A DNA stretch of 64,000 nt. Source: Flammeovirgaceae bacterium SG7u.111. GTDB lineage: Bacteria > Bacteroidota > Bacteroidia > Cytophagales > Flammeovirgaceae. Position 1 is the first letter of the stretch, and every line of letters begins with the position of its first letter. The stretch covers positions 4,231,635 through 4,295,634 of the forward strand of contig CP139021.1 of the NCBI GenBank assembly GCA_034044135.1. Direction: 5' to 3'. This document shows positions 3,023 to 19,518 of the stretch, one piece after another. Under the pieces are notes generated by a model. It saw only the letters and a program-made list of their open reading frames with translations. It did no database searches and was not told the origin of the DNA. Position numbers and translations under genes: made by a program.

Positions 3023-6000
3023 ATGAATACTAAAACTTTCAAGTTTTTCCTTATTTCTACTTTTTGCAGCCTTTTGTGCTGGGCAAATGCCTTTGCTCAA
3101 TACGGCATTTGGATAAACGATGGGCAAGAACATATCAATAAGCGAGAGGTCTCACTCCGGATTTTGGGCGAAGGCATGGAAGAAATGATGCTCTGCAACG
3201 AGTATATTTTTGCTGGCTCTGCTTGGCAACCTGTGCAAGAGAAAATAGACTGGGTTCTTGATGAAGGCGACGGCCTCAAAACGGTCTGTATCAAATTTAG
3301 GGACAAAGACGGCAACGAATCGGGTTATATTTTTGACGAGATCATGCTCGATACCCAAGCTCCTTTTGGGGGAAGTTTGCTGCTTGCCGGAGGGAATACC
3401 TACATTACACATTACATGAACGTAGGGATGGAAATAGCTGCCTACGAAGCAGATGAGATGTTTGTAAGCACAGATGAAAACTTTAGTACGGGAAGATGGC
3501 TTCCCTTCAACTCCCAATTTACTACAAACCTTAGTTCGGGCGATGGGGAGAAAAAAGTCTACGTGAAGTTTAGAGACAAAGCTGGAAATGTATCGGAAAC
3601 TACAAGCGATGCCGTAATTTTAGACACAACCCCCCCTTCTGATCTTAGGTTAGAAATAATTTCAGACGACATCATTCTTGATGAGACAACAGGCAAGAAA
3701 TATCTGAACCAAGTGAACTCCAAAGTAGACCTTGAAGCTTTCGCCAAAGGTGCTGAATACATGAAAATCACCAATGTATTTTCCGACTACGGGCTAAAAT
3801 GGAGAATGGTGGACGATTACTACGAAGACTGGCCGCTCGATAACCCAAGGGATGGCGTCTATTATGTATATGCGCAGTTTAGAGATGTTGCCGGCAACCA
3901 TTCTCGCATAGTAAAAGATGAAGTGATTGTGGACACCTATCCGCCAGTTGCGCCCAATGTAGCCATTGAAAATGATGAAAAATTTGCCACAGGCGAATCG
4001 GTTGAACTAGATCTTTTTGCCTTAGAGGCGACCGAAATGATGATAAGCGACGACCCTAAAATGCTCGGCGCAGAATGGCAACCATTTCAGCGCCAAGCTA
4101 CTTGGAACTTTGAAGAAGGCGATGGGGAAAAGCGAATTTTTGTAAAATACAGAGATATAGCTCACAACGAAACCCCCGTAGTTAGCGATGAAGTACTTAT
4201 TGATAGGCTAGCCCCACAAAACTGTTCTATCAGCTTACAACATGGCGACGAGGTAATTGACGATCAGTTCGTAATTGTCGATTTGAATGCCGACGATGCC
4301 CTGATGATGAAAGTAAGCGAAGATCCTACTTTCTACCAAGTACCTTGGCAATATTACAAAGCAGAGCCATTTGTATTTACCCTCAACCGTGACCCTGGTC
4401 ATAAAAAAGTATATGTGACCTTCAAAGATGAAGCAGGCAACCAAACGGATATTTACGAAGATTCGATCATCATCAATGCACCGCCTGTTCGCTACCAACT
4501 AGCAATAGACCGCGCTGCTAAGTATTGTACCGACCCCGAAGGAAAAACCATGCTGTATATCCACTCAAGGGAAGCAAGTGAAATGATGGTTAGCAACCTC
4601 AAGCATTTTGATGATGCCGATTGGGAACCTTATGTTAGGGAAAAGCCTTGGCAACTAGAACCTGGCGTGGGAGAAAAAGAAGTTTTCATCAAATTTAGAA
4701 GTGCCATAGGCACGGAATCTCCTCGAATATCGAGCAAAATAATTCTTGACAACGAAGCTCCCCAAAATATTGCACTAAGCGTAAATAAAGGAAAATCCGA
4801 AACGCTACTTTACCACACAAAAGTAATGGTGAAAGCTGAAAATGCGGAATTTATGCAGATCAGCAACCGCCCTGACTTTTTGGAAGCCCCTTGGCAACGC
4901 TACACAATGGAGCCAGTTTCGCTCAAGCTTGTCCCCCAATCTGGCGACATCCGAATTTATGCTCGCTGCAAAGACTTGGCAGGAAATATTTCCGACACAG
5001 TTTCTGTTCCATTAACTGTAGGATTAATGCCTCTTCGAGCAAAAATATCCATCGACAAAGATGCTATTTATTCCCACAGCAAAGAGCTGAAGGTAAAACT
5101 TGATCTCTATGCACAAGATGCCACCGAGATGATGGTTAGCAACAACAGCAGCTTCAGGGGTGCAGAATGGGAGCCTTACCAAGAACAAAAGGACTGGGAG
5201 CTTACCGATGTAGATGGAAAAAAAACGGTATTTGTCAAGTTTAGAAGTAGGACAAAAACTGAATGCCGCCCAGTTTCAGATGATATTATCTTAGATATTC
5301 ATCCGCCACAAAAACCCAGCATCACGCTGGCAAATGGCAAGCCTACCACCAAAGATTATTATGTGTGGAGCGAATTAAAAGCCGCCGATGCGGTACTCAT
5401 GAAAGTTAGTTTGTTCGAAGACATGCACGACGCTAGATGGCAAGCCTATACCCACAAACCTTACCTCACTTTTTTAGGTACAAAAGGCGACATGACCGCC
5501 GTTTATGCCCAATTCCAAGATGTTTCGGGAAATATCACCGATGTAGTTTCGGATAGTATATTTGTAGAAGTCACACCAAACCAATGCAAAATTTCCATCA
5601 ACAATAACGATCCTTATACTACCAATAGAGAAAGCAAGGTCTCACTTCTGCTCAAATCAGACAACGTCGACAAAATGATGATCAGCAACAATTCCGATTT
5701 TGCAGGGGCAGAATGGGAGCCTTATCACATCAAAAAAGAATGGGTACTTACTCCAAATGACGGAGAAAAGGTTGTTTACGCCAAGTTCATTAGCAAAACT
5801 GGAACGGAGTCGAAAGTGGTGAAGGATAAAATATTAATAGATACCAAAGCTCCTTTCGATTGCGCAATGGAAGTGAGTAGCTCAAGATGGTGGGAAAGAC
5901 TCAACCCCAACTATATCCAAGTAAAGGTGAAAGCAAAAGATGCCGTTTTAATGCAACTAAGCGAAAACGGAGAATTCAATAGGGTACGTTGGTTGCCTTA

Positions 6001-7240
6001 TACGGATGTTCCATTTACTTACAGGGTAACCCATGGCGATGGTGTCAAAAAACTTTATGCTCGTTTCAAAGACTTGTATGGAAATGTATCTGAAGTAGTT
6101 AGCGGATCGGTGAATATCGACAAGCTTCCTCCTCAAAACAACAGCTTGGTGATAAACGACGGAAAGGCTTTTACCAACTCTGAACATGTAAAATTACACT
6201 TGTACTCCGAAGATGCGGCAATGGTACGAATTAGCAATACTTTGCCATCCATCAAAACTGCCCGCTGGGTGAAATACGAGGAAGAAATAGATTGGAAACT
6301 AACAAATAGCGAAGACAACATAAAGCATGTGTACATCCAGTTCAAAGATGCTACGGGAAATGTAACCAAACCTGTAGAAGTGAAAGTAGAGCTTGATAGA
6401 AAGCCTCCACTAGATGCCATTATGACCATAGAAGGAGGTTCTTATTGCCATAATCCAAATGGGCTCGTTATGCTCAACCTTAAGTCGGAAGGAGCCACCA
6501 GAGTGATGCTTAGCAACTCGAATAACTTTGAGGGGAAAAGCTGGAAAAAGCTAACACCGAAAATGGAATGGCAACTAGAAGGTCCTGATGGAGACAAGGT
6601 TATATACGCCCGCTTTAGTGATGAGTCGGGCAATGAACCTGACATGGCTTCGGTAAGTGTTTTACTAGATAGAAAAGCACCCGAAGGAAATGATTTTACC
6701 ATCAACAAAGGAGCGGAATTCACCAACTCCGCCAACGTAGAGCTCAGCCTTGAGTCTATAGGAGCTCATGAAATGGTCATCAGCAACACAGGACTATTTG
6801 CTATTCCTGAAAAGTGGGAACCATTTAAGAAAACCAGAAAATGGAACCTGAACCACTTAGAAGGGAAAAAAACAGTTTTTGTGAAATTCAGAGACAGGGC
6901 AGGAAATGTAACTGAAGTGCTCACCCAATCGATCATTCTCGATTCAGAATCGCCAGTAGTCCATACCTTCAAAATAAATGGAGATGAGACTATGGTAGAT
7001 GGCTTGCAAGTTTCATTAGATTTCCACCTAAAAGACGCTCCATACAATGAGATGCCCGATGCCAAATTCATGCAGATAGCCAATTCTCCCAACGGATTGG
7101 AAAGCGCAGAATGGCAGCCTTTGTTCAATGGGGCAAATTGGAACATAGGAGGAACGGGACTTCAAAAAGTATATGTAAGATTTAAAGATGTAGCCGGAAA
7201 TGTCACCAGACCTTTTGCCGCACAGATTACGGTTTATTAG
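3023..7240 (+). CDS. Secreted giant protein of about 15 tandem Ig-like repeats
   Basis: A signal peptide (MNTKTFKFFLISTFCSLLCW, cleaved near ANAFA-Q) is followed directly by about 15 repeats of about 92 residues (276 bp) that fill all 1405 residues. Each repeat has the same order: a strand near xxINxGxxYT, then A(x)EMMxSN, W(E/Q)PY, a second W, GEKxVYxKFxD, GNxS, and a closing DxIxLDxxxP. Repeats 4 to 11 alternate between a type with MMVSN, EWEPY and GTES and a type with LMKVS/MQIS and GN(I/V)(S/T)D, so the unit of duplication seems to be a pair. No enzyme domain, plug, transmembrane helix or C-terminal sorting domain is visible. The repeats resemble bacterial Ig-like/OmpL47-type surface modules, suggesting an extracellular filamentous adhesin or scaffold. 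This role is an inference. Confidence 0.85.
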   Translation: MNTKTFKFFLISTFCSLLCWANAFAQYGIWINDGQEHINKREVSLRILGEGMEEMMLCNEYIFAGSAWQPVQEKIDWVLDEGDGLKTVCIKFRDKDGNESGYIFDEIMLDTQAPFGGSLLLAGGNTYITHYMNVGMEIAAYEADEMFVSTDENFSTGRWLPFNSQFTTNLSSGDGEKKVYVKFRDKAGNVSETTSDAVILDTTPPSDLRLEIISDDIILDETTGKKYLNQVNSKVDLEAFAKGAEYMKITNVFSDYGLKWRMVDDYYEDWPLDNPRDGVYYVYAQFRDVAGNHSRIVKDEVIVDTYPPVAPNVAIENDEKFATGESVELDLFALEATEMMISDDPKMLGAEWQPFQRQATWNFEEGDGEKRIFVKYRDIAHNETPVVSDEVLIDRLAPQNCSISLQHGDEVIDDQFVIVDLNADDALMMKVSEDPTFYQVPWQYYKAEPFVFTLNRDPGHKKVYVTFKDEAGNQTDIYEDSIIINAPPVRYQLAIDRAAKYCTDPEGKTMLYIHSREASEMMVSNLKHFDDADWEPYVREKPWQLEPGVGEKEVFIKFRSAIGTESPRISSKIILDNEAPQNIALSVNKGKSETLLYHTKVMVKAENAEFMQISNRPDFLEAPWQRYTMEPVSLKLVPQSGDIRIYARCKDLAGNISDTVSVPLTVGLMPLRAKISIDKDAIYSHSKELKVKLDLYAQDATEMMVSNNSSFRGAEWEPYQEQKDWELTDVDGKKTVFVKFRSRTKTECRPVSDDIILDIHPPQKPSITLANGKPTTKDYYVWSELKAADAVLMKVSLFEDMHDARWQAYTHKPYLTFLGTKGDMTAVYAQFQDVSGNITDVVSDSIFVEVTPNQCKISINNNDPYTTNRESKVSLLLKSDNVDKMMISNNSDFAGAEWEPYHIKKEWVLTPNDGEKVVYAKFISKTGTESKVVKDKILIDTKAPFDCAMEVSSSRWWERLNPNYIQVKVKAKDAVLMQLSENGEFNRVRWLPYTDVPFTYRVTHGDGVKKLYARFKDLYGNVSEVVSGSVNIDKLPPQNNSLVINDGKAFTNSEHVKLHLYSEDAAMVRISNTLPSIKTARWVKYEEEIDWKLTNSEDNIKHVYIQFKDATGNVTKPVEVKVELDRKPPLDAIMTIEGGSYCHNPNGLVMLNLKSEGATRVMLSNSNNFEGKSWKKLTPKMEWQLEGPDGDKVIYARFSDESGNEPDMASVSVLLDRKAPEGNDFTINKGAEFTNSANVELSLESIGAHEMVISNTGLFAIPEKWEPFKKTRKWNLNHLEGKKTVFVKFRDRAGNVTEVLTQSIILDSESPVVHTFKINGDETMVDGLQVSLDFHLKDAPYNEMPDAKFMQIANSPNGLESAEWQPLFNGANWNIGGTGLQKVYVRFKDVAGNVTRPFAAQITVY

Positions 7241-7277: not shown

Positions 7278-7316
7278 AAAATGCCTCATGCTACAGTGTG
7301 AGGCATTTTCTTTTTC
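7278..7316 (+). terminator. Intrinsic terminator after the Ig-repeat gene
   Basis: An 11-bp perfect stem (AAAATGCCTCA at 7278-7288 with TGAGGCATTTT at 7299-7309), a 10-nt loop and a following T-rich run (TCTTTTTCC) lie 38 bp after the stop at 7240. It separates the Ig-repeat gene from the unrecognised gene cluster downstream. Confidence 0.85.
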
Positions 7317-7439
7317 CAAATACCATAATCACGCAGAAATCAGGAGCAACTCCAACTTATTATTTGGTCATTTCAGCTATTTAGTTAATTTTTTACCCCT
7401 CCAATATAGGTTTATTAGATTATTTTTCGTTTATTGAAC

Positions 7440-7532
7440 ATGAAGTACGCCAAATCTTTGGATCAGCTGCTAAAGCTGGCAGATCTTCTGCACCAAAACT
7501 CTGATTTGAGAATACATTTCATAAACACATAA
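7440..7532 (+). CDS. Possible 30-residue leucine-rich small ORF at the head of the unknown cluster
   Basis: ATG at 7440 opens a 31-codon frame (MKYAKSLDQLLKLADLLHQN, then ten more residues) that ends 32 bp before the next gene. The first 20 residues would form an amphipathic helix, and codon choice (GCC, CTG, CTT) looks coding-like against the AT-rich flanks. There is no Shine-Dalgarno sequence, which is not informative in this phylum. It could also be leader sequence or chance. No homolog is recognised. Confidence 0.3.
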   Translation: MKYAKSLDQLLKLADLLHQNSDLRIHFINT

Positions 7533-7564
7533 TCCATTATTCTAACACCAACACTTGTAACATT

Positions 7565-7963
7565 ATGAGTTCACAAAACGAACAAAAAGTAGTAAAAGGC
7601 TTCCAAAAACTTCTGGGAGACATTGGCGAAGCTATTGGCGATGCCGCATCCCTCGAAGTATCTACTTTCACTGGAAATTTCCAGTACAAAGTATCGGAAG
7701 TGGTTAAAAACGACACTGACCGAGCAAGGGTGGACCAAGTCCTCAAAAAAATGACTTCTGTAAAAGGAGAAGTTGACCTTAAGCTCTTTGCCTTCACCAG
7801 TATCAAGATCGACTCGGATGTCACCAACATTGTTCGAGACGATATTTCAGAAGCGGACAAAGAACTGCTTACCCTCCACAAAGACATGATTGCCGAATCG
7901 CGCGAGGCTAGGGCCAACATTTTTGAAATGGTTAAAAACTTGGTAAACACATTCGGTAAATAA
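7565..7963 (+). CDS. Unrecognised 132-residue protein, DGD-H module family member A
   Basis: Not recognised as any named family. There is no signal peptide or membrane segment. It has two features shared with its neighbours: an N-terminal stretch at residues 26-36 (DAASLEVSTFT) and a C-terminal module at 79-125 containing a beta-strand, IDSDV (82-86, where the others have DGD), EL(L)xLH with His105, and a terminal amphipathic helix (ARANIFEMVKNLVNTF). Aligned from ID(S/G)D, the E-L-x-x-x-H spacing is identical to that in the 9665-10033 protein with no gaps. It is followed after 2 bp by the next gene, so the two are translated from one mRNA. Function is unknown. Confidence 0.75.
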   Translation: MSSQNEQKVVKGFQKLLGDIGEAIGDAASLEVSTFTGNFQYKVSEVVKNDTDRARVDQVLKKMTSVKGEVDLKLFAFTSIKIDSDVTNIVRDDISEADKELLTLHKDMIAESREARANIFEMVKNLVNTFGK

Positions 7964-7965
7964 GA

Positions 7966-9594
7966 ATGGCAATCCCCAGAGATCTGATAGAAAGGCTAGA
8001 AGAAGAATACACGACTCTCCCCGACCCTACTGACGAGATTTTGCAGCACTTGCAGGAGCTTGGCTATATAAATAGGGCGCTGGGCGATGCTTTGCTCAAC
8101 TCTCAGATCGATGAAGGAAAACAAGCGTTTAAGGAGGACTTTTTATCGTCAGGCTTGCTTAGTCGCAAAGAGATTTCCGACAGCTTGAGGCTAGACGAAG
8201 AAACGTTCCTCCTCCAAACTTCCCGACAGGCAACGGACATTGACGAAGGTTTTACCTTCAAGCAAATGCCTGAACTGGGTACGACCAATCTCATCACCCG
8301 AATTATCCATTACAGACTGGAGCTTTTTGGACTTTGGGATGGAAATGCGTTTCCCATTTCGTCACCATTTTCCATCAATGCGCTGCTGATGCTAAGAAGG
8401 CTGGAAGAATACACCGACCTTTCGGAGCTTGATTGCATTAACCAACTAGCAGACATTGAAGGGTTTACATATCGGCTATTGGAAGAAAGACCTCCAGAGG
8501 ATTTCATTTTGACTTTTAGAGGAAAAAAACTGGAAGGTGATGAGTTTAAAAAACTGGAAAGAAGGCGGGCATTTGGCAGGCAACTGGTAGACGAGTTTGG
8601 GGAGAAGAACGAATACATTAAAAAGCTCAAAAAAACGGTTCTGAAAGACAACGAGGATAAAATTGATTATCACTTCCTTAGGAAAGAATCGAGAAATGAG
8701 TTCAAAAAATTCGTACTTAGGCTCATCCAAGTTCACCAATGGCAGGAAGGCTTTTACGACGGCTTGCTAGACTCCAACATGGGCGATGCCACGGTAAGCA
8801 GCGTGCTAGAAGCAATTAATTTACACAATGAAAGTACGGATGCCGACATCAAACCACACCGAGCGCTTACCTATCTGGACGATGGTTTTTATATGTTCAA
8901 CGGGCTGTTTTTCTTGAAGCAATACATGGTGGAAAACGAGGGGCACAACCCCGAAAAGCTATGGGAAGAATTGGGCAACCAAGTGGCCGAAGCCTCGGAA
9001 GAAGACCGCGAACAATACAACGAAAACCTCTCTAAGATAAAGAAAGAGCTGGTTTCGGGGAGTGACAAGCCAACAGTTAAAAAAGGATTTTTTAAAAGGG
9101 TCTATTGCGGAGTAAAAAAAGTACTCCAAAAGGCTATGGCAATGATTAAAAAGCTATTCAAATTCGTCCTTACCAAGCTCAAACAATTGACCAGTTTCCT
9201 CACCCGTATTTTCAAAATTTTCTATGAAAACCTGCGGTTTGGGATCAAAGCCTTTCTGGATGGGCTAAAGTTTATTATTGGAAGGAAAATGGTGGTTACC
9301 GCTACAGAAAAAGACTTTATTATTTCCACTTTTTCGTTGGACGGCGACTGCATGAATTTGGCTAATCAGTCGGCGGCAAAATTGGTGAAAGACCACAGGT
9401 TCAAAACAGGGTACTTTTTTGCTACCATGTTTTTTTCCTTAAAAGTGGTGCAAGGCGTGCTCCAACTCGTACTTAGGGCGGTAAACATGCTTTCGTGGCC
9501 GCTCTTGCTCATTAAAATAGTGCAAGTGGTCAAAATGATTGTGGAAGAATCTAAAGAGCTACGGCTCAGCTATGAAGCACAACCTGTTCCATAA
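7966..9594 (+). CDS. Unrecognised 542-residue protein with a cationic amphipathic stretch and the DGD-H module, member B
   Basis: Not recognised. The first 360 residues are soluble, charged and mostly helical, starting MAIPRDLIERLEEEY. Residues about 374-440 form an unusual Lys/Phe-rich, amphipathic run (for example KKLFKFVLTKLKQLTSFLTR) that looks able to lie on or enter a membrane. The C-terminal part carries the cluster's shared module: FIISTFSLDGD with LDGD at 458-461 and a downstream His477 (LVKDH). It then ends in two hydrophobic segments (FFATMFFSLKVVQGVLQLVL and SWPLLLIKIVQVVKMIV). There is no signal peptide, so it is probably an inner-face membrane-associated protein. It is the largest protein of the cluster and is tightly coupled to the gene 2 bp upstream. 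Confidence 0.75.
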   Translation: MAIPRDLIERLEEEYTTLPDPTDEILQHLQELGYINRALGDALLNSQIDEGKQAFKEDFLSSGLLSRKEISDSLRLDEETFLLQTSRQATDIDEGFTFKQMPELGTTNLITRIIHYRLELFGLWDGNAFPISSPFSINALLMLRRLEEYTDLSELDCINQLADIEGFTYRLLEERPPEDFILTFRGKKLEGDEFKKLERRRAFGRQLVDEFGEKNEYIKKLKKTVLKDNEDKIDYHFLRKESRNEFKKFVLRLIQVHQWQEGFYDGLLDSNMGDATVSSVLEAINLHNESTDADIKPHRALTYLDDGFYMFNGLFFLKQYMVENEGHNPEKLWEELGNQVAEASEEDREQYNENLSKIKKELVSGSDKPTVKKGFFKRVYCGVKKVLQKAMAMIKKLFKFVLTKLKQLTSFLTRIFKIFYENLRFGIKAFLDGLKFIIGRKMVVTATEKDFIISTFSLDGDCMNLANQSAAKLVKDHRFKTGYFFATMFFSLKVVQGVLQLVLRAVNMLSWPLLLIKIVQVVKMIVEESKELRLSYEAQPVP

Positions 9595-9664
9595 GATTTC
9601 ACCTGCATGGAAAATTTGAAATTGAATCAATTTATTTGTAAAAACACATCAAAATACTAATACA

Positions 9665-10033
9665 ATGGCAGCTAATACAAAAAAAGAGTCGACCTTATTA
9701 GACAAATTGGTAAACAGTGCAAATGACCTTACCACACTCAACATCGAAACGGTGATGTGCAAATTGGAAGTTGATAACCAAGGGAAAATTATTTACCCAA
9801 AATCTCAAGAGGTTCAAGGCATAGTAAGCAGGATCGACCTGATAGACGGTGATGTGAAGACCCATGTAACTGAACCATTTTACAAGAAATACCCCGAATT
9901 GGTACAGTTCCACCAATCCCGTGAGGCAAAAGGCAGCGAGATTATCGAGAGCAACATCGAAACTATTGGGACAATTGTAGATACGTTGAAAGGTATTCTC
10001 CCAGCATTGAAAGATCTCTTTCCAGAAGAGTAA
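9665..10033 (+). CDS. Unrecognised 122-residue protein, DGD-H module family member C
   Basis: Not recognised as a named family. It has the N-terminal motif DLTTLNIETV (21-30), equivalent to DAASLEVSTF in member A and DLTFMEINTI in member D. It also has the C-terminal module: SRIDLIDGDV (55-64), PELVQFH with His83, a serine-containing helix (SEIIESNIETIG), and a hydrophobic amphipathic tail (IVDTLKGILPALKDLF). There is no signal peptide. It lies 70 bp after member B and 76 bp before member D, in the same direction, and is probably in the same transcription unit. The match with member A from IDxD to the His is ungapped over 24 residues, good evidence of common ancestry. Function is unknown. Confidence 0.75.
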   Translation: MAANTKKESTLLDKLVNSANDLTTLNIETVMCKLEVDNQGKIIYPKSQEVQGIVSRIDLIDGDVKTHVTEPFYKKYPELVQFHQSREAKGSEIIESNIETIGTIVDTLKGILPALKDLFPEE

Positions 10034-10055
10034 TTTTTCTAACTTAGCAACCTTC

Positions 10056-10075
10056 AAGCTGGCACATGCCAGCTT
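10056..10075. other. Tight palindromic hairpin between members C and D
   Basis: Two 9-nt perfect arms (AAGCTGGCA and TGCCAGCTT) are separated by only CA, 22 bp after the stop of member C and 35 bp before member D. No T-run follows, so it is not a standard terminator. It could be an mRNA-stability or attenuation hairpin, or a protein-binding palindrome. Confidence 0.5.
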
Positions 10076-10109
10076 AGGTATTTCCTTGAATATTTTTTTA
10101 TAAAGTAAC

Positions 10110-10826
10110 ATGGGCCTTTTCTCCAAAAAAGACAACAGTGCAGAAAGCAAAAAGTCAGTGATTCTGGATATACTCGATGACTTGACTTTTATGGAAATCA
10201 ATACCATAATCAAACCTGCAATGGGGGCAAGTACGACCCCTGCGTTCGACGAATTAGTAGCACAATTGAAAAAAAGCTATGCCTACCGACTCGGCACTTT
10301 GATACACAAAAACAATATTGGGTACGATTATGACAAGGGCAAATGCCAGTCCTATGAATTTTTGCATACTGAGCTAAAGCAAACGGAAGCATATATGCAA
10401 AAACATAAGCAACGAATGGACGCCGAAGACTTTGTTATTTTTAGTAGAATTATGGGTTTTTGCGATTATTTGGAAAGGGCAGATATCGTAGTAGAAGCTA
10501 AAGATTCATCAGCTGGATTAAAACCGATGGATATTTACCACATGGATCTCGATATGTTTGACAAATACGACTTTAAACCCATAAACCCTCGGGACAAGGC
10601 TAGAATAAGGAGAATGTACGATCTAGGCTCAGAAAAGATCATTCTCCAGACTCGGTTTGGCATTGATGGAGACGTGGTGACACGAATAAGTGAGCACTAT
10701 GCATCTGCTCCGAAAGAAGCACTTACCAAAATCCATGACAAACATGTCCAGCTCTCTCTGGACTATTGGCAAAGCTTGATAAAAACAGCAACTGAGCTAG
10801 TTGGGGGGATTTTCGGCAATAAGTAG
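10110..10826 (+). CDS. Unrecognised 238-residue protein, DGD-H module family member D
   Basis: Not recognised. It begins MGLFSKKDNSAESKKS, then has the cluster's N-terminal motif DLTFMEINTI (25-34), a helical middle (EFLHTELKQTEAYMQKHKQR) and a soluble region to about 170. The C-terminal module reads ILQTRFGIDGDVVTRIS (DGD at 186-188), then KEALTKIH with His209, a serine-containing helix (QLSLDYWQSLI) and a short amphipathic glycine-rich tail (ATELVGGIFGNK). There is no signal peptide or clear membrane span. Its last codons contain a run of six G (10803-10808), across which the following frame (member E) overlaps by 26 nt, so the 3' end could be altered by a one-base slip. Confidence 0.72.
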   Translation: MGLFSKKDNSAESKKSVILDILDDLTFMEINTIIKPAMGASTTPAFDELVAQLKKSYAYRLGTLIHKNNIGYDYDKGKCQSYEFLHTELKQTEAYMQKHKQRMDAEDFVIFSRIMGFCDYLERADIVVEAKDSSAGLKPMDIYHMDLDMFDKYDFKPINPRDKARIRRMYDLGSEKIILQTRFGIDGDVVTRISEHYASAPKEALTKIHDKHVQLSLDYWQSLIKTATELVGGIFGNK

Positions 10827-11280
10827 TTTGAAGGGAACTCGCGGTCATATCAAGTTTTTAAAGTCACTCCTATTGCTAGGGGAAGTCAGCTTTTTGTCCA
10901 AAAACAGCAAGGGTGAATTTGTGATTGAAACGAAACTCTATTTGGACGGGGATATTGTTTGTAAGGTATTTTCGGAAAATGAAGAAGAAGAAGAAGTGAT
11001 TGATAAGCATATAAAAATGATCAAAAAACAGGTCAGTATACTTAGGCACCTGAGCAAATACATCACTGCTTTCATTACCACCATTTCCACCACTGCTGGA
11101 TATTTAGTCCAGCTAGAATCTAACATTCCGAATAACTTAGGGCTAATAATCCCAACTGTTGGGTTCGTATTTCCACTCTTCTTCAAAAAGCAATTTTTTG
11201 GAGGAGCAATGAGTATATTTACTTTTATAACTAAAACCTTTACAAAAGATTCCTTGAAAAGCTTTACCAACGTAAGCTAG
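10801..11280 (+). CDS. Unrecognised membrane-associated protein, DGD-H module member E, no ATG start
   Basis: Not recognised. The open frame overlaps the end of member D by 26 nt in the +1 frame. No ATG is available near its start: TTG at 10801 or TTG at 10828 are the only usual options, or it is reached by a +1 shift at the six-G run in member D. It carries the shared module (GEFVIETKLYLDGDIV with DGD at 49-51, then VIDKH with His70). It continues into hydrophobic segments (KYITAFITTISTTAGYLV and LGLIIPTVGFVFPLFF), so it is likely membrane-embedded. Its stop overlaps the stop of the convergent LuxR gene by 3-4 nt. It may be a separate gene, the second half of a D-E fusion, or a frameshifted remnant. 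Confidence 0.55.
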   Translation: MGGFSAISSLKGTRGHIKFLKSLLLLGEVSFLSKNSKGEFVIETKLYLDGDIVCKVFSENEEEEEVIDKHIKMIKKQVSILRHLSKYITAFITTISTTAGYLVQLESNIPNNLGLIIPTVGFVFPLFFKKQFFGGAMSIFTFITKTFTKDSLKSFTNVS

Positions 11281-12053
11281 ATCAAACCTTCTCTAATTGC
11301 CTGAACAACCAATTCTGTACTATTTTTACTCTCTGTTTTTTCCAACATATTTTTACGGTGGGTCTGCACCGTATGGACACTAATTCCTAGTTTATGAGCT
11401 ATCAATCCATTTGGATGCCCCATGGCTATCAGTCTCAAAATATCCCTTTCCCGCTTCGTGATAACCGATTCTAAAAGCCTGATCTTACCTGTGTTATATA
11501 CTTTATAAAAAACAGTCTCATAATCATCGTGCTCATTCAAAAACCGCACTGTTGCGCGCATGGGCAACTCTTCTCCTTCACCAAAAACGGTAAAATGCCC
11601 CAGCCCAACAATAGGCCTCCCGTTGGTATCTGCTAAAATATTCACCTGGTTTTCAAGTATATTCACATAATTCCCCTCTGCATTTTTAAAGCGATAGTTG
11701 TACTGGAAATCTAGCCTATCGAGTAATTGGGGTGGGTAATTTTCTAAGTAGAACTCTACCAGCTCTCGAAGGAGCTGCAGCCATGTTTGAATTTCATCAG
11801 GATGTATAAACGAAAGAAAGTGAGGGATTCCTTTTTCTAAAAACTCTTCCTTATCTTGCCCAGTGGCAAAGCCAAAGTTTTTGCTGATAAATTCGTATTT
11901 ACTAATACTCGTATTTGTGATCATTAGGAAAGTAGAACTTGGAGGAAGCACCTTATCCAACTCTTTCAGGTGCTTGATATGCCCCTTAATTTCTTCTTTT
12001 CTAAAATCATATGTAGTCCTGAAAATCTCGTTGTAATGGTCAAACTTCCCCAT
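11277..12053 (-). CDS. LuxR-family transcriptional regulator with PAS-like sensor domain
   Basis: The protein has 258 residues. The C-terminal 60 residues are a LuxR/FixJ helix-turn-helix: ITKRERDILRLIAMGHPNGL, then GISVHTVQTHRKNMLEKT and a short final helix. The N-terminal 190 residues fit a PAS-type fold (YEFISKNFGFATG, HPDEIQTWLQLL, YNYRFKNAEGNYVNIL) of the kind seen in Bacteroidota one-component regulators with a PAS sensor. No receiver domain or phosphoacceptor Asp is present, so it probably senses a ligand or redox state directly. It is convergent with the unknown cluster and divergent from the esterase gene. The 34-nt palindrome upstream of its start is a plausible binding site. Confidence 0.85.
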   Translation of the reverse strand: MGKFDHYNEIFRTTYDFRKEEIKGHIKHLKELDKVLPPSSTFLMITNTSISKYEFISKNFGFATGQDKEEFLEKGIPHFLSFIHPDEIQTWLQLLRELVEFYLENYPPQLLDRLDFQYNYRFKNAEGNYVNILENQVNILADTNGRPIVGLGHFTVFGEGEELPMRATVRFLNEHDDYETVFYKVYNTGKIRLLESVITKRERDILRLIAMGHPNGLIAHKLGISVHTVQTHRKNMLEKTESKNSTELVVQAIREGLI

Positions 12054-13623: not shown

Positions 13624-16600
13624 ATGAAGAAACTTTTTGTACTACTCACTCTATTTTTATTTTTTACCACATCAAATAGCCATGCCCAAGACTTGCTGGA
13701 AAGCAGGAAAAGCAGCTCCGTAAAGCATATATTTCGGATCACGCCCGAGCAGGCGGAAACCATTTACCGCAAAGGGGCTCACGAGGTTGATGATGCGTAT
13801 TTCCAAAACCTGATAGCCACTTACCACCTCGACAGCGGCTACTACGAAGAACTGCCAATTGGGCATTACCTCTACGTACACGTAGCGGGCAACCGGGTGG
13901 ACTTTGAACTCGAAACGGTTAATACGTTGCAAGTAAACGTGCTGGACAACCATCGGGATTTGATTATTTCGGTACACGAAAAAAATGGAAAAGTTGCGGA
14001 GGGCGCAAAAGTCAAACTGAAAAAGAAAAGCCTTCATTTTGACAAAAAGCTTCAGGCTTTTCGGCTAGGCAAGGCAAACAAGCACGGCTTGCTAAAGGTC
14101 AGCTACCAAGGCGAGGAAGGCTATTATAACGTGGAGCAATATGGAAAAAGCAGCCGTTACAAACGTATTTCCAGCAAAATCCTTTATTCTGTGCCGCTTC
14201 GGTATGTTTGGATTCCTCTCCGATTTATCATTTTCATTCCTATAGATGGAGTTCGGTCAATTGTACATCATAGCCCTACAGGTTCTATTTATTGGTTTGT
14301 AAAACAGTACAGGAAGATTTTTGAAAGGGATTATTATGACTACAACCGTTACAATTCGGATAAACACCGAGGCTACATGGTGTTCAACCAACCCAAATAC
14401 CGCCAAGGCGATACGGTGAAAATCAAGGCTTTTATAGTGAACAAAAAGGGAAAGCCCGTAGATAAGAAACTGGATTTGGTTCTTTCTGGAGGTGGAAAAA
14501 ATATAGACTTAGACTTCCTCGAACCATATACCGCAGGCGGGTACAGCTATGAATTTGTGCTGCACGACAGCCTTGGGCTTAGGCTGGACAGCTATTGCAG
14601 TATTCGTTTGGAAAACGAGGATGGGGATAGCTACATAAGCGGAGCGTTTCGGTACGAAGATTACGAGCTCAAAAGTGCCACCTACACGCTTCGCACGGTG
14701 GAAAAAGAGCATTTCCGTGGCAGACCGTTTTCCCTCATTATGCAGGGCAAGGACGAAAACGACCTGAACATCATGGACGGTAGGTTTGTGCTTTCCCTCA
14801 CCACCAACCACGTGAGCAGGTTTTACCCCGACTCGGTATTTGTGCCCGACACGCTCTGGACGCACCGCCAAGCGCTCGACCCTGTGGGGGAAACCAAGCT
14901 CACCATCCCCGACTCTATTTTTCCACAAACCAACCTGATCTACAAAATAAATGTGGATTTTTTGACCTCGGACAACGAGAAAATACACAAAAGCAAGAAT
15001 GTAAGCTACTGGTTCGAGAACAAAGAAATCAAGTTTGAAGAAGAAGGAGATCGTTTGAGTATTTCTTACCATAAAAATGGGGAAACAAAGACTGGAAAAG
15101 CTATTTTAGAAGCATATGACTCAGAAGAAAACCTTTTGGAAGAAAGAACTTTGGAGCTACCCATCAAGGTACAGATCAATCCATTTGTAGCAGAATATTG
15201 GGTGGAAACTGATAGCACTTCAAATTGGCACGAATTGGGAAATGGAAATATTTCCATCTCTGGTTACCGAACGGCAGATTCGGTGTTCTTCGCTGCCCAA
15301 AACCCTTCGAACATCCCCTTCACGTGGCAACTCTACAGCAAAAACAGTGAAGTTGCCCGAGGCAACGGAAAGGAGCTGAACCTTCGCAAAAGCGTAGGAA
15401 ACAAAAAGACATACTCGATCAGGTGGCAATACATATATGGTGGAAAAGCCAAAAATGGGTCGGCTACGGCTCAGCTTTTTGACAACCAACTGAACCTTAA
15501 GGTTGACCAACCTTCTGTCATTTATCCAGGGCAAAAAGCGAGCATTGAAGTAGCCGTGACCGACTCGAAGGGCAAGCCTGTAAAGGATGTAGATGTGACT
15601 GCTTACGCAAACACCAAAAAGTTTGGGAGCGAAAACCATGACATTCCTTACTTGGGAAAATACCGTGCGCCAAGGGGGGATCTGAACAAATTCAGCTTGA
15701 AAGACACCAAAGGGCACGACGGAAATATCCGACTGCAATACGAGGAATGGAACAAGCTTTCCAAACTTGACAGCGTGGAATATTACCATTTCCTTTACCC
15801 CAAAAATAAGCTTTACAAAACCAGCTTTCCTGTGGAAGACAGCGTTACGCAGTTTGCTCCCTTTGTGGTTGATAATGGGAAAATCGAACCCGTTCATGTG
15901 GTTTACCTTGATAACAAACCTGTTTATTTCAGCTTTTCTCAACAAGCCCAACCTTATTCTTTCCGAGTGGATAGCGGATATCATTACCTAAGGCTGAGGA
16001 CTTCTACTAGGTCAATTATTTTGGATAGCCTTTACTTTGCTCATGGCAAAAAAACAATCTTGAGTGTGGAAGATTCAGCTGTAGCCAAGCACATTTCTTC
16101 TTACACAAAGCTTAACACGTTTAGCGATAATGAAAAAAGGTCTTTGAGCAGGTACATTTTCCCTTATGCCAAAAACCATCCCGAGCAGCTCACTTATCTG
16201 TTGCAGGACTCGATTGTCACGAAGCTAAATCATCCAAAATCCTATCGCTACGGAAGAAGAGTAGAAGATCACACCAGTTTTGTTGGCCCAGTTTCATCTG
16301 CGCCTCTCCAATTTGTAGTGATAGATAGCTTTAACACAAAATTTAATCACGAAAGCAATTTTGAGTATGACTTTCAAAAAGGTTTGCTCAAAATGCGAGA
16401 AAAAGATACAAAAAGTCTGCTCCCTAAACGTTTGAGCAACTCTCTATCAACCCCTTCCTTTACTGGCCGAGCCTATACTGTTAAACAAATGGAAGATTCT
16501 TGGGAGGCATACCTCAAACGAAACATCGCTACCAATAGGATTTGGTACGACAATGCAACTTCGACTGAAAAAGGAAATGGCTGGCTGAAAATCGAACTTG

Positions 16601-19518
16601 AGCACGAAAGCCCCGACAGCTTACGACCACTTTTGCTCAACACGTTCATTTTCACCCTCGACGACCCCGATTTTTTACGGTTGTACCCTGGGAAAACAAA
16701 CAGGTTTCACCAGCTCAAACCTGGCACCTACCGCATGGTCTTCCTTTTTGATGACCACAAATATTGGATACAGGAAAACGTGAACATCCGACCAAATGGG
16801 GCAAACTTCCAACGGGTAAAAATCCCACAGGAACTCAAACAAGACGAGTTTAGCGACAAGCTTACGGAGTTGATTAAGAGAAGGGCGAAAAAGCCGTACA
16901 CAGGCACGCCCCTGAAACAAGAAGTTCAACAAGTTTATAGAGAAACGCAATACACGAACTCCGCCATCAGCGGAAATGTGGTGAGGGGGACGGTGCTTTC
17001 AACCGAAGATGGTGAGCCGCTTCCTGGAGTTTCTATCCTTGTTAAAGGCACAACCTATGGGACAACCTCTGATATTGATGGCAACTATGAACTGGCTGTC
17101 CCTAACTATAATTCAATCTTGATATTTAGTTTTATTGGTTGCGTCACTAAAGAAATACAAGTCAGCCAGAATTTCATTAATGTTTCTCTTGATTATGATT
17201 TAGCACAACTGGAAGAAGTAGTAGTGATTGGGTATGGAACGCAAAAAAGAAGAGAGTTAACAGGAGCAGTGTTTAGCATAAAAGCAAATCAATCCCTACA
17301 AGGAAGAGTTGCTGGAGTTTCGGTCAACCAAAATATCATGATAAGAGGGACTTCTTCTTTAGGTGAAAGCTCACCTCTCTACGTGATAGATGGAATGGTG
17401 TATGATGCAATGCCCGATGGTGTAAATATAGATGATTTTGCCAGTATGGAAGTATTGAAAGATGCGTCAGCAACAGCAATATATGGCGCAAGGGCAGCAA
17501 ATGGTGTAATACTTATCTCAATGAAAGAAGGAAAAGGCTTGGCAAGCCAGATCATTGGTGGAGAAGCCAAAGATGCTTTTTGGGAAAATGCGGCGGCTGG
17601 AAATTCCCTTCGAACCAACTTCGCTGACTATGCATTTTGGCAACCTCGCTTGCGCACCAACAAGGAAGGAAAAGCCTCGTTTGAAGTCACTTTCCCCGAT
17701 GACATCACCAACTGGAAAACCTACTACCTCGCCATGAACGACCAGAAGCAGAGCGGGTACACCAGCGGGGAAATCCGTTCGTTCCGCCCACTTTCTGCAA
17801 AAATGGCGACTCCCCGCTTTTTGGTAGTTGGAGACTCAGTCAACTTTGTAGGCAAAGCCATGAACTACACCGCAGATACGCTGGATATTTCCACCTTCTT
17901 TTTGGTAGAAGGGGAAAAAGTGCTGCCCAAAAACCTCCAACTCGCCAACGCCGCCATCGATTCCATCTACTTGGAAATAGCAGACAAGGATTCGCTGAAA
18001 ATTGGTTTCCAAGTAGAAAAAGCCGATGGATATTTTGATGGGGAAGAAAAAGGCATCCCGATTTTCCCTGTAGGCACGAAGGAAACCAAAGGTCAGTTTT
18101 TAGCACTTTATACCGATACGGTTTTCCAACTTCCGTTCACCCACTCCAACAAGGTTACGCTAAGAGCCGATGCCAATTTATTGAGCATTGCCGAGCAAGA
18201 AATAAAACATGTGCTCAACTACAAGTACCTCTGCAACGAGCAACTCGCCTCCAAGCTCAAAGCCTTGGTAGCCAAAACTAGGATCGACCTTGCGCTCAAG
18301 CGGGAAATTATCTACGCAAAAGACATCCAAAAAATCATTACCCGACTGGAAAACACCCAACGTACTGACGGCACTTGGGGCTGGTGGGAAAACACCGACC
18401 GAGTGGATTGGATAACGCTGCACGTATGGGAAGCTTTGGCACAAGCCAATGAAATCGGGTACTCGAATAAGCTGGACAAAGAGCTCATCAAAAACAGTTT
18501 AGTTTGGGAAATTGACCGAGCAGGCAGCAGGAAAAAAATGAAGATCATCGAGCTGCTGATGGCATTGAATGTTCCATTTGCCTACAAAGACCACCTCCAA
18601 AAAATAGAGGCAGACTCCGTGACTGAATTTACGTTGGGGGAAAAATTTAAGCTCATCCGCATTAGGCAAAAACTTAAGTTGCCTTATGACCTGAAAATAG
18701 TTGAAGAGAGCAGAAAAGAAACCTTATTTGGCGATTATTATTGGGGGGAAGAGAGCCGTTATTACGCTTTTGCCCAAAACCCTTCGCTCAATACTGCACT
18801 CGCCTACCGCATTTTGAAAGCCGACAGCACGGACGAATTTACCATGAGAAAAGTAAGAAGTGCTTTGGTGGGAATGCGAAAAGACGGTTTCTGGCAAAAC
18901 ACCTATATTTCTTCCTACGTGTTAGAATCCATTTTGCCCGACCTCCTCGGCGATACCCCAGGCGAGCTACCCGATGCAACGCTAACCCTTAGCGGAGCTG
19001 CAAATGTACGGTTGACAAGCTTCCCTTATACCACCGAGCTGAACCAGCAGGGCGTACTGAACATCAAAAAAGGAGGAAAACTTCCCGTTTATTTGAGTGT
19101 ATTTGAAGAGTTTTGGCAGCCCAACCCCACTCCTGTGGACAGTGCCTTCACCGTTCGCTCCTACTTCGATTTGCTAGATACGGCATCCACCGAGCTAAAA
19201 GCTGGGGAAGCTGTGAAGCTCAAAGTGGAAGTGGTGGTGAAGAAAAAATCTGAGTACGTGATGATTGAAGTTCCCATCCCCGCAGGCTGTACCTATGAAA
19301 ACAAACGCCAATATTATTACAGGGAAACCCATCGGGAATATTTCAGAAACCAGACGAGTATTTTCTGCCAAGACCTTCCTGCTGACACCTATGAGTTTGA
19401 GGTAGAGTTACTGCCGAGGTACAGCGGAAAATACACCTTGAACCCCGTAAGGGCCGAGCAGATGTACTTCCCTGTTTTCTATGGTAGAAATGGGTTGAAA
19501 AGAGTGGTGGTGGAGTAG
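13624..19518 (+). CDS. Giant alpha-2-macroglobulin-like protein with an inserted SusC-type regulatory/plug segment
   Basis: The protein has 1964 residues. A signal peptide (MKKLFVLLTLFLFFTTSNSHA) is followed by macroglobulin-type beta domains, with an MG2-like part near residues 250-350 (GYMVFNQPKYRQGDTVKIKA). At about residues 1119-1310 lies a carboxypeptidase-regulatory-like domain (VRGTVLSTEDGEPLPGVSIL) and a TonB-receptor plug-like part (LEEVVVIGYGTQKRRELTG, PLYVIDGM, EVLKDASATAIYGARAANGV). No beta-barrel follows. Then comes the A2M domain (FADYAFWQPRLRTNKEGKAS) and the thioester site KYLCNEQLAS with Cys1537 (C-x-E-Q), then the helical thioester domain (TDGTWGWWENTDRVDWI) and receptor-like C-terminal domains. 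Bacterial A2Ms trap proteases in the periplasm. The plug segment sits where eukaryotic A2Ms have the bait region. It is a single-gene unit closed by the terminator at 19547. Confidence 0.85.
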   Translation: MKKLFVLLTLFLFFTTSNSHAQDLLESRKSSSVKHIFRITPEQAETIYRKGAHEVDDAYFQNLIATYHLDSGYYEELPIGHYLYVHVAGNRVDFELETVNTLQVNVLDNHRDLIISVHEKNGKVAEGAKVKLKKKSLHFDKKLQAFRLGKANKHGLLKVSYQGEEGYYNVEQYGKSSRYKRISSKILYSVPLRYVWIPLRFIIFIPIDGVRSIVHHSPTGSIYWFVKQYRKIFERDYYDYNRYNSDKHRGYMVFNQPKYRQGDTVKIKAFIVNKKGKPVDKKLDLVLSGGGKNIDLDFLEPYTAGGYSYEFVLHDSLGLRLDSYCSIRLENEDGDSYISGAFRYEDYELKSATYTLRTVEKEHFRGRPFSLIMQGKDENDLNIMDGRFVLSLTTNHVSRFYPDSVFVPDTLWTHRQALDPVGETKLTIPDSIFPQTNLIYKINVDFLTSDNEKIHKSKNVSYWFENKEIKFEEEGDRLSISYHKNGETKTGKAILEAYDSEENLLEERTLELPIKVQINPFVAEYWVETDSTSNWHELGNGNISISGYRTADSVFFAAQNPSNIPFTWQLYSKNSEVARGNGKELNLRKSVGNKKTYSIRWQYIYGGKAKNGSATAQLFDNQLNLKVDQPSVIYPGQKASIEVAVTDSKGKPVKDVDVTAYANTKKFGSENHDIPYLGKYRAPRGDLNKFSLKDTKGHDGNIRLQYEEWNKLSKLDSVEYYHFLYPKNKLYKTSFPVEDSVTQFAPFVVDNGKIEPVHVVYLDNKPVYFSFSQQAQPYSFRVDSGYHYLRLRTSTRSIILDSLYFAHGKKTILSVEDSAVAKHISSYTKLNTFSDNEKRSLSRYIFPYAKNHPEQLTYLLQDSIVTKLNHPKSYRYGRRVEDHTSFVGPVSSAPLQFVVIDSFNTKFNHESNFEYDFQKGLLKMREKDTKSLLPKRLSNSLSTPSFTGRAYTVKQMEDSWEAYLKRNIATNRIWYDNATSTEKGNGWLKIELEHESPDSLRPLLLNTFIFTLDDPDFLRLYPGKTNRFHQLKPGTYRMVFLFDDHKYWIQENVNIRPNGANFQRVKIPQELKQDEFSDKLTELIKRRAKKPYTGTPLKQEVQQVYRETQYTNSAISGNVVRGTVLSTEDGEPLPGVSILVKGTTYGTTSDIDGNYELAVPNYNSILIFSFIGCVTKEIQVSQNFINVSLDYDLAQLEEVVVIGYGTQKRRELTGAVFSIKANQSLQGRVAGVSVNQNIMIRGTSSLGESSPLYVIDGMVYDAMPDGVNIDDFASMEVLKDASATAIYGARAANGVILISMKEGKGLASQIIGGEAKDAFWENAAAGNSLRTNFADYAFWQPRLRTNKEGKASFEVTFPDDITNWKTYYLAMNDQKQSGYTSGEIRSFRPLSAKMATPRFLVVGDSVNFVGKAMNYTADTLDISTFFLVEGEKVLPKNLQLANAAIDSIYLEIADKDSLKIGFQVEKADGYFDGEEKGIPIFPVGTKETKGQFLALYTDTVFQLPFTHSNKVTLRADANLLSIAEQEIKHVLNYKYLCNEQLASKLKALVAKTRIDLALKREIIYAKDIQKIITRLENTQRTDGTWGWWENTDRVDWITLHVWEALAQANEIGYSNKLDKELIKNSLVWEIDRAGSRKKMKIIELLMALNVPFAYKDHLQKIEADSVTEFTLGEKFKLIRIRQKLKLPYDLKIVEESRKETLFGDYYWGEESRYYAFAQNPSLNTALAYRILKADSTDEFTMRKVRSALVGMRKDGFWQNTYISSYVLESILPDLLGDTPGELPDATLTLSGAANVRLTSFPYTTELNQQGVLNIKKGGKLPVYLSVFEEFWQPNPTPVDSAFTVRSYFDLLDTASTELKAGEAVKLKVEVVVKKKSEYVMIEVPIPAGCTYENKRQYYYRETHREYFRNQTSIFCQDLPADTYEFEVELLPRYSGKYTLNPVRAEQMYFPVFYGRNGLKRVVVE

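Follow-up and report, generated by a model that had tools for sequence, protein, structure and literature searches.

We describe an operon of five genes, A to E, in a stretch of 64,000 nucleotides (nt) from Flammeovirgaceae bacterium SG7u.111 (contig CP139021.1, positions 4,231,635 to 4,295,634 of the forward strand; hereafter the window), whose products are five paralogues built on one small helix-strand-strand-strand-helix domain, named DGD-H here, with B as the least certain member. All five genes are open reading frames (ORFs) on the + strand, with gaps of 2 (A/B), 70 (B/C), 76 (C/D) and -26 nt (D/E), in line with the single direction and short gaps reported in a preliminary description of this DNA; the cluster begins at 7565 and not at 7440, as had been stated there. 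Gene A (7565..7963, 132 residues) carries one DGD-H domain with the strand-1 motif SLEVST, an IDSD and His105. Gene B (7966..9594, 542 residues) has weak peptidoglycan-binding-like places in its N-terminal part, a long stretch at about 370-440 that is basic or amphipathic by eye, and the DGD-H domain at about 440-480. Gene C (9665..10033, 122 residues) is a minimal DGD-H domain, in gene D (10110..10826, 238 residues) the domain is split by a helical insert, and in gene E (10801..11280, 159 residues) it is followed by hydrophobic stretches. The start codon of E, a TTG, is uncertain; as read here, E overlaps D by 26 nt.

The DGD...H module that had been proposed as common to A-E takes the form IDSD in A, LDGD in B and E, and IDGD in C and D, with a histidine 20 (A), 16 (B), 20 (C), 21 (D) or 19 (E) residues after the last aspartate. 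Among 762 ORFs of the same loci used as controls, 17 matched the pattern [ILVFMYW]D[GSA]D.{12,26}H, and its joint chance in five proteins of the lengths of A-E is 2.4e-10, a figure that is merely indicative because the pattern was written after the motif had been seen. Single-pair hhalign comparisons yielded P values of 5.6e-8 for C-A, 7.1e-8 for C-D, 1.8e-7 for D-E, 2.7e-7 for D-A and 3.3e-5 for E-B, with the A-C match running from the N-terminus of A up to the histidine, and nine of the ten family pairs exceeded all of the 60 column shuffles run per pair. In scans of the genome itself, the D profile weakly found the second E gene (E-value 0.012) and the E profile weakly found the second D gene (E-value 0.005).

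AlphaFold2 models of C (predicted local distance difference test (pLDDT) 75.9, predicted template modelling score (pTM) 0.55) and D (pLDDT 90.2, pTM 0.82) have one topology, consisting of a helix, two strands, a GD turn, a third strand and a long histidine-bearing helix. The elements of C are a helix at 3-21, strands at 24-31, 51-58 and 63-68 and a helix at 77-118, with GD at 62-63 and His83 inside the last helix; those of D are a helix at 10-24, a strand at 27-34, the helical insert, strands at 176-184 and 189-193 and a helix at 203-236, with DGD at 186-188 and His209 again inside the last helix. GD is the turn that joins strands 2 and 3 in both models, and about 140 residues separate strand 1 of D from strands 2-3. 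Together with the profile pairs and shuffles, these models bear out the common module and revise its extent: the preliminary description had placed it near the C-terminus, but it is not confined there, since it accounts for most of A and C, is split in D and precedes hydrophobic segments in E. Likewise, the N-terminal motif noticed earlier in A, C and D is real but not separate, being strand 1 of the same domain. The domain has a common origin in A, C, D and E, and probably in B as well, and the profile pairs support the earlier proposal that one domain was duplicated and diversified within one operon.

Across homologues, what is conserved is the last aspartate and the histidine rather than the strict pattern, which was retained in 9/9 A, 5/9 B, 22/64 C, 40/63 D and 22/49 E proteins. 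In alignments of a subset of the collected rows (8/9 A, 9/9 B, 27/64 C, 45/63 D and 37 E), the last aspartate was kept in all A, B, C and D rows (8/8, 9/9, 27/27 and 45/45) and in 35/37 E rows, and the histidine in 8/8 A, 9/9 B, 27/27 C, 44/45 D and 35/37 E rows. The threonine of the strand-1 motif was present in 8/8 A, 27/27 C, 44/45 D and 31/37 E rows, with threonine or serine in 9/9 B rows. Identity to the window protein ranged from 16 to 42% among D homologues and from 10 to 23% among E homologues.

Homologues were drawn from the same family, the order, a draw from the phylum and species-representative contigs (40 loci). The C profile matched 15 of the 18 genomes of the family, own genome included (6/8 genera), 35 of 291 genomes of the order (17/115 genera) and 3 of 395 in the phylum draw, again with the own genome included. 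At least one member was present at 67 loci, of which 47 contained C, D and E, 12 C and D only, four C alone, two D and E, one D alone and one A-B-C; this count omits the E genes of two Azospirillum loci, L129 and L130 (E-values 0.06-0.08, beyond the 0.06 cut-off), the E-like ORFs of L131 and L132 (150 and 158 residues, by eye) and of L083 (truncated by a contig end), all of L162-L164, and rows identical to another protein. C and D lay on the same strand in 59/59 loci and D and E in 49/49; the median gap was 30 nt for the former pair and 2 nt for the latter. Distances in the C, D and E trees over the 47 loci were correlated at 0.83-0.87, a level reached in 0/2000 permutations. Gene order is therefore conserved in other Cytophagales, as the preliminary description had suggested could be checked, and beyond them.

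Twelve loci carry A and B: the window, L022, L083, L087, L088, L090, L094, L131 and L132, in all of which A and B precede C, together with L162 and L163, where C-D-E are not nearby, and L164, where A-B lie at a contig end. The idea of a five-gene system changes in its composition: most loci have C-D-E without A-B, C-D-E form the natural unit, and A-B are an addition to it in one sub-lineage. A tree built from 45 D proteins placed the seven rows of the A-B type and L089 in one clade with support of 98/92 (inner six 100/100), and the window D was nearest to that of L083 (95/79, not a starred fork) and to Bacteroidales rows. The second D copy of the genome (L018) lay far from the window D and grouped with the C-D-E copies found in its own family. 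A-B-C-D-E is thus a distinct sub-lineage, and the genome holds one locus of each type; profile searches of this genome (A not searched singly) returned these two loci and one weak stray match of the E profile (G000:C1:4552095-4552373, E-value 0.05, one internal stop).

C-D-E occur in Bacteroidota, anammox planctomycetes, Desulfobacterales and Thiotrichales. Relatives of D were found in records titled Bacteroidales, Cytophagales, Flavobacteriales, Candidatus Brocadia, Loosdrechtia, Anammoxibacter, Desulfobacterales, Deltaproteobacteria, Beggiatoa, Thiomargarita, Venteria, Thiotrichales and Rhodospirillales, many of the species-representative records being metagenome-assembled genomes; the phylum labels of such rows in the D tree were Bacteroidota, Planctomycetota, Thermodesulfobacteriota, Pseudomonadota and Myxococcota. 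A search with the second-copy D additionally found seven Azospirillum large replicons, and in both of those inspected C-D-E relatives directly followed parA-parB (L129:6419-10468 on a large replicon of Azospirillum argentinense, and L130 alike). In the genus labelled g3, the C profile matched once per genome (9/9 genomes), with neighbours of similar length at the loci seen. The C proteins of this genus (L025-L031, 199-226 residues) have low-complexity tails in which F(D/N)P units recur, a feature that the window C lacks.

Hydrophobic segments are found mainly in B and E, in agreement with the membrane association proposed earlier. By a simple hydropathy rule with a limit of 1.6, transmembrane-like segments occurred in 36/49 E and 7/9 B rows versus 1/9 A, 2/64 C and 0/63 D rows, and segments beginning in the first 20 residues in only 4 of 194 rows in total. 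The window B has two such segments, at 485-503 and 508-526.

The A-B version of the operon frequently adjoins a peptidoglycan peptidase of the TIGR02594 family. A gene for such a protein is the next one upstream, on the same strand, of A at L083, L087, L088, L090 and L163 and of C at L089, and all six neighbours scored 113-121 bits against the NCBIfam cut-off of 70.55 bits; at L131, a TIGR02594 protein follows D and the E-like ORF, as judged with a home-made profile and not with NCBIfam. The home-made profile was run on nine A-B loci, with L162 and L164 judged by eye. The three neighbours given to Pfam also contained PG_binding_1 (E-values 4.8e-17 to 6.5e-14), none of the neighbours had a signal peptide evident by eye, and one cysteine and one histidine, which we take to be catalytic, were present in 6/6 aligned TIGR02594 proteins. 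Within B, two places resembled the PG_binding_1 of these neighbours weakly (254-286 and 18-69, single-pair P 0.008 each), a third at 118-149 reached P 0.24, and the two best scores exceeded 100/100 column shuffles. Proteins of the TIGR02594 or NlpC-P60-CHAP type with PG_binding_1 thus resemble the operon in being encoded beside it (six of the 12 A-B loci and L089) and in these weakly similar places in B; they differ from it in being neighbours, with no homology to A, C, D or E.

Other enzyme genes were seen near A-B-type loci. At L090, which has the TIGR02594 gene, a patatin gene (L090:11152-12183, E-value 1.7e-34) lies 24 nt downstream of the A-E operon and a caspase-like gene (L090:1438-2748, Peptidase_C14 E-value 7.8e-8) several kilobases upstream; both are kinds of protein that we take to be known from conflict systems. 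At L163, B is directly followed by a 210-residue protein with an HEYCH zinc-peptidase-like motif (L163:8768-9400; family matches with E-values of 0.01-0.05 or weaker). One g3 genome (G011) also encodes a TIGR02594 protein elsewhere (L168:9549-10205), with about 120 kb between this gene and the C-D-E locus.

Searches of Pfam, NCBIfam, PHROGs and PADLOC returned no sensible match for any of A-E, in accord with the preliminary description, in which none was recognised as a named family. We took as chance the matches of A to ZorA_4 (NCBIfam E-value 0.0044, 16 bits versus a cut-off of 500), to a PHROG of minor head proteins (E-value 0.0038) and to Pfam Spectrin_5 (E-value 0.056), of C to phrog_16029 (E-value 0.0095) and of B to PADLOC PDC-M14B (E-value 0.0015, 16.4 bits); in PADLOC, B otherwise matched CorA (12.6 bits, E-value 0.027) and A, C, D and E matched nothing. 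The only matches in Pfam scans of 27 C, 23 D and 3 B proteins were scattered (best E-value 0.0013), the best match to PDB by sequence profile had an E-value of 0.036, and Foldseek at an E-value of at most 0.001 found nothing in PDB for the C or D models or in BFVD for D. Among openly licensed papers, searched by titles and the starts of abstracts, none described the operon, which does not prove it unpublished. A mobile-element origin was set aside, as no relatives of C, D or B were found on viral contigs, of D in phages or of B on plasmids. On checking, we found neither a placement of the proteins in unrelated known families, nor a DGD/His spacing at the level of chance, nor a lack of co-occurrence, the three outcomes by which the preliminary description had expected its proposal to be weakened or overturned. 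We regard the DGD-H family and its operon as categorically new, being unnamed in the curated libraries, PDB sequences and paper listings searched.

Because C-D-E travel together across phyla and the longer set often adjoins a cell-wall-cutting enzyme, these proteins may build one membrane-associated machine. The explanation we favour, with confidence that is evenly balanced, is an inner-membrane-associated hetero-oligomer of duplicated subunits that is coupled to cell-wall hydrolysis in its A-E form. In such a complex, the strands and long helices of DGD-H would hold A-E together at the inner membrane, on its cytoplasmic side, with E (and B) as the putative membrane anchors and C-D-E as the core scaffold. 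The conserved aspartate in the hairpin turn and the histidine in the long helix may together make a polar or metal site by which the fold or an interface is stabilised. In the A-E version, the scaffold would be linked to cell-wall hydrolysis by B, which, at loci with a partner peptidase, would recruit that enzyme or let it pass. A bolder version, which we consider quite unlikely, is a new inner-membrane machine of up to five paralogues in at least four phyla that provides a Sec-independent route to the wall for a peptidoglycan hydrolase without a signal peptide, that is, a release or secretion device.

Several observations weigh against the proposed hetero-oligomer. Some direct comparisons between members were weak (hhalign P 6.2e-4 for A-E, 1.5e-3 for C-E, 5.9e-3 for A-B and 0.071 for D-B), and for C-B (P 0.42) 37 of 60 column shuffles were equally good; since A-E and C-E are weak and D-E is strong, E is joined to the family through D, and the membership of B rests mainly on E-B. 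C occurs without D or E in 5 of the 67 loci (four alone, and L022 with A-B) and D without C in three, which together with the A-B genes that stand without C-D-E at L162 and L163 indicates that the parts can act apart. The hydropathy peak of the window E is 1.49 and thus below the limit, so that its membrane nature rests on homologues. TIGR02594 adjoins only six of the 12 A-B loci and, at E-values of at most 1e-5, has no match in the window's own genome (3 of the 18 genomes of the family have one), it was found only at L089 among the C-D-E-only loci searched by profile, and the B proteins scanned with Pfam had no PG_binding domain. The correlation of the C, D and E trees is also expected from a shared species history, and direct interaction of the proteins is a prediction.

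The main alternative, possible though fairly unlikely in our judgement, is a programmed-lysis or conflict (immune) system in which DGD-H would form a sensing or assembly core and the TIGR02594, patatin and metallopeptidase-like neighbours would be exchangeable killing effectors. Such a role would suit the varied enzyme genes beside A-B-type loci (TIGR02594, patatin and caspase-like at L090, HExxH-type after B at L163), the patchy occurrence of the family in the order and the phylum draw, and the weak match of A to ZorA. Phage lysis cassettes consist of a holin and an endolysin, and the likeness is a hydrolase without an evident signal peptide beside membrane-type proteins; the difference is that most C-D-E loci have no such hydrolase, and neither C, D nor B has viral relatives, nor D phage relatives, among the sequences searched. 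The g3 pattern looks vertical, with its single C match in each genome and neighbours of similar lengths, PADLOC gave nothing beyond the two low-scoring matches of B, and no constant effector stands beside C-D-E as judged by gene lengths and the neighbours displayed. PMC13055248 lists TIGR02594 domains among type VI secretion system (T6SS) effectors for peptidoglycan degradation, which again would fit killing effectors. Conflict systems of multicellular bacteria (PMC7159879, PMC8195603) are similarly patchy in occurrence, but A-E contain no NTPase or other named domain in the family scans.

Roles for the domain itself in catalysis, metal binding or nucleic-acid binding are less supported. The complex could be an enzyme or a metal-dependent carrier with a catalytic or metal-binding aspartate and histidine, and both residues are indeed kept in all A, B and C rows and nearly all D and E rows despite the low identity of D and E; we consider this unlikely, given that the five families share few such residues and that no enzyme family or fold was matched. 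A distant relationship of DGD-H to the nucleic-acid-binding YbaB/EbfC fold (PF02575), with DNA or RNA at the membrane as the target of the operon, appears very unlikely. The likeness lies in the order of a helix, three strands and a long helix: the YbaB chain 1pug topped the VIA fold lists of both models, at Z 6.1 for C (root-mean-square deviation (rmsd) 6.4, 92 residues aligned) and Z 6.3 for D (rmsd 7.4, 88 aligned; the best VIA Z overall), weak values in that a Z below 8 may reflect just a common arrangement, and C-D-E follow parA-parB on the Azospirillum replicons. Against it, Foldseek found YbaB structures only weakly (C with 1j8b, E-value 0.35; D with 1pug, E-value 3.5), hhalign of the five family alignments with 20 YbaB proteins detected no profile similarity (P 0.19-0.95), PF02575 was absent among the Pfam matches of A-E and of the C, D and B proteins, and the operon includes partners, E and B, with transmembrane-like segments. 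Finally, a chance resemblance of unrelated proteins would account for the C-B pair being no better than shuffles and for the other weak pairs; with P values near 1e-7 for C-A, C-D, D-A and D-E, the shuffle controls and the matching models of C and D, we deem it extremely improbable, and it is contradicted for A, C and D and, via D, for E.

The family comprises a conserved three-gene C-D-E unit and a longer version of five or six genes, both built on one domain that is apparently undescribed, and the records that contain it include giant sulphur bacteria, anammox bacteria, sulphate reducers, Azospirillum and many Cytophagales. If the favoured explanation of a membrane assembly coupled to cell-wall hydrolysis is true, it would be a new envelope system. 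The conserved aspartate/histidine pair and the simplicity of the C-D-E operon open the family to direct tests in Azospirillum or Flammeovirga.

The surroundings of the operon in the window are ordinary in composition. G+C was 0.39-0.44 over the operon and about 0.39-0.46 elsewhere in the first 19.5 kb, so a genomic island was rejected, and TANNTTTG, which we take to be the Bacteroidota -7 box, occurred 67 times in the window versus 69.5 expected. A terminator-like inverted repeat on the + strand (7279..7317, AAAATGCCTCA...TGAGGCATTTT, with a T-rich tail), recognised by eye and not listed by an automated scan, its 9-base loop being beyond the limits of that scan, separates A from the gene directly upstream (3023-7240), which encodes a 1405-residue protein with Ig-like repeats (Pfam Big_13 E-value 3.7e-16) and, by eye, a signal-like stretch at its N-terminus. 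Downstream, a gene for a PAS_3 and LuxR-type (GerE) regulator on the - strand (11277-12053) is convergent with E and overlaps its end by 4 nt. Further on, 13624-19518 encodes a predicted secreted protein of 1964 residues that, by eye, joins an alpha-2-macroglobulin-like part to a carboxypeptidase-like/TonB-plug-like middle.

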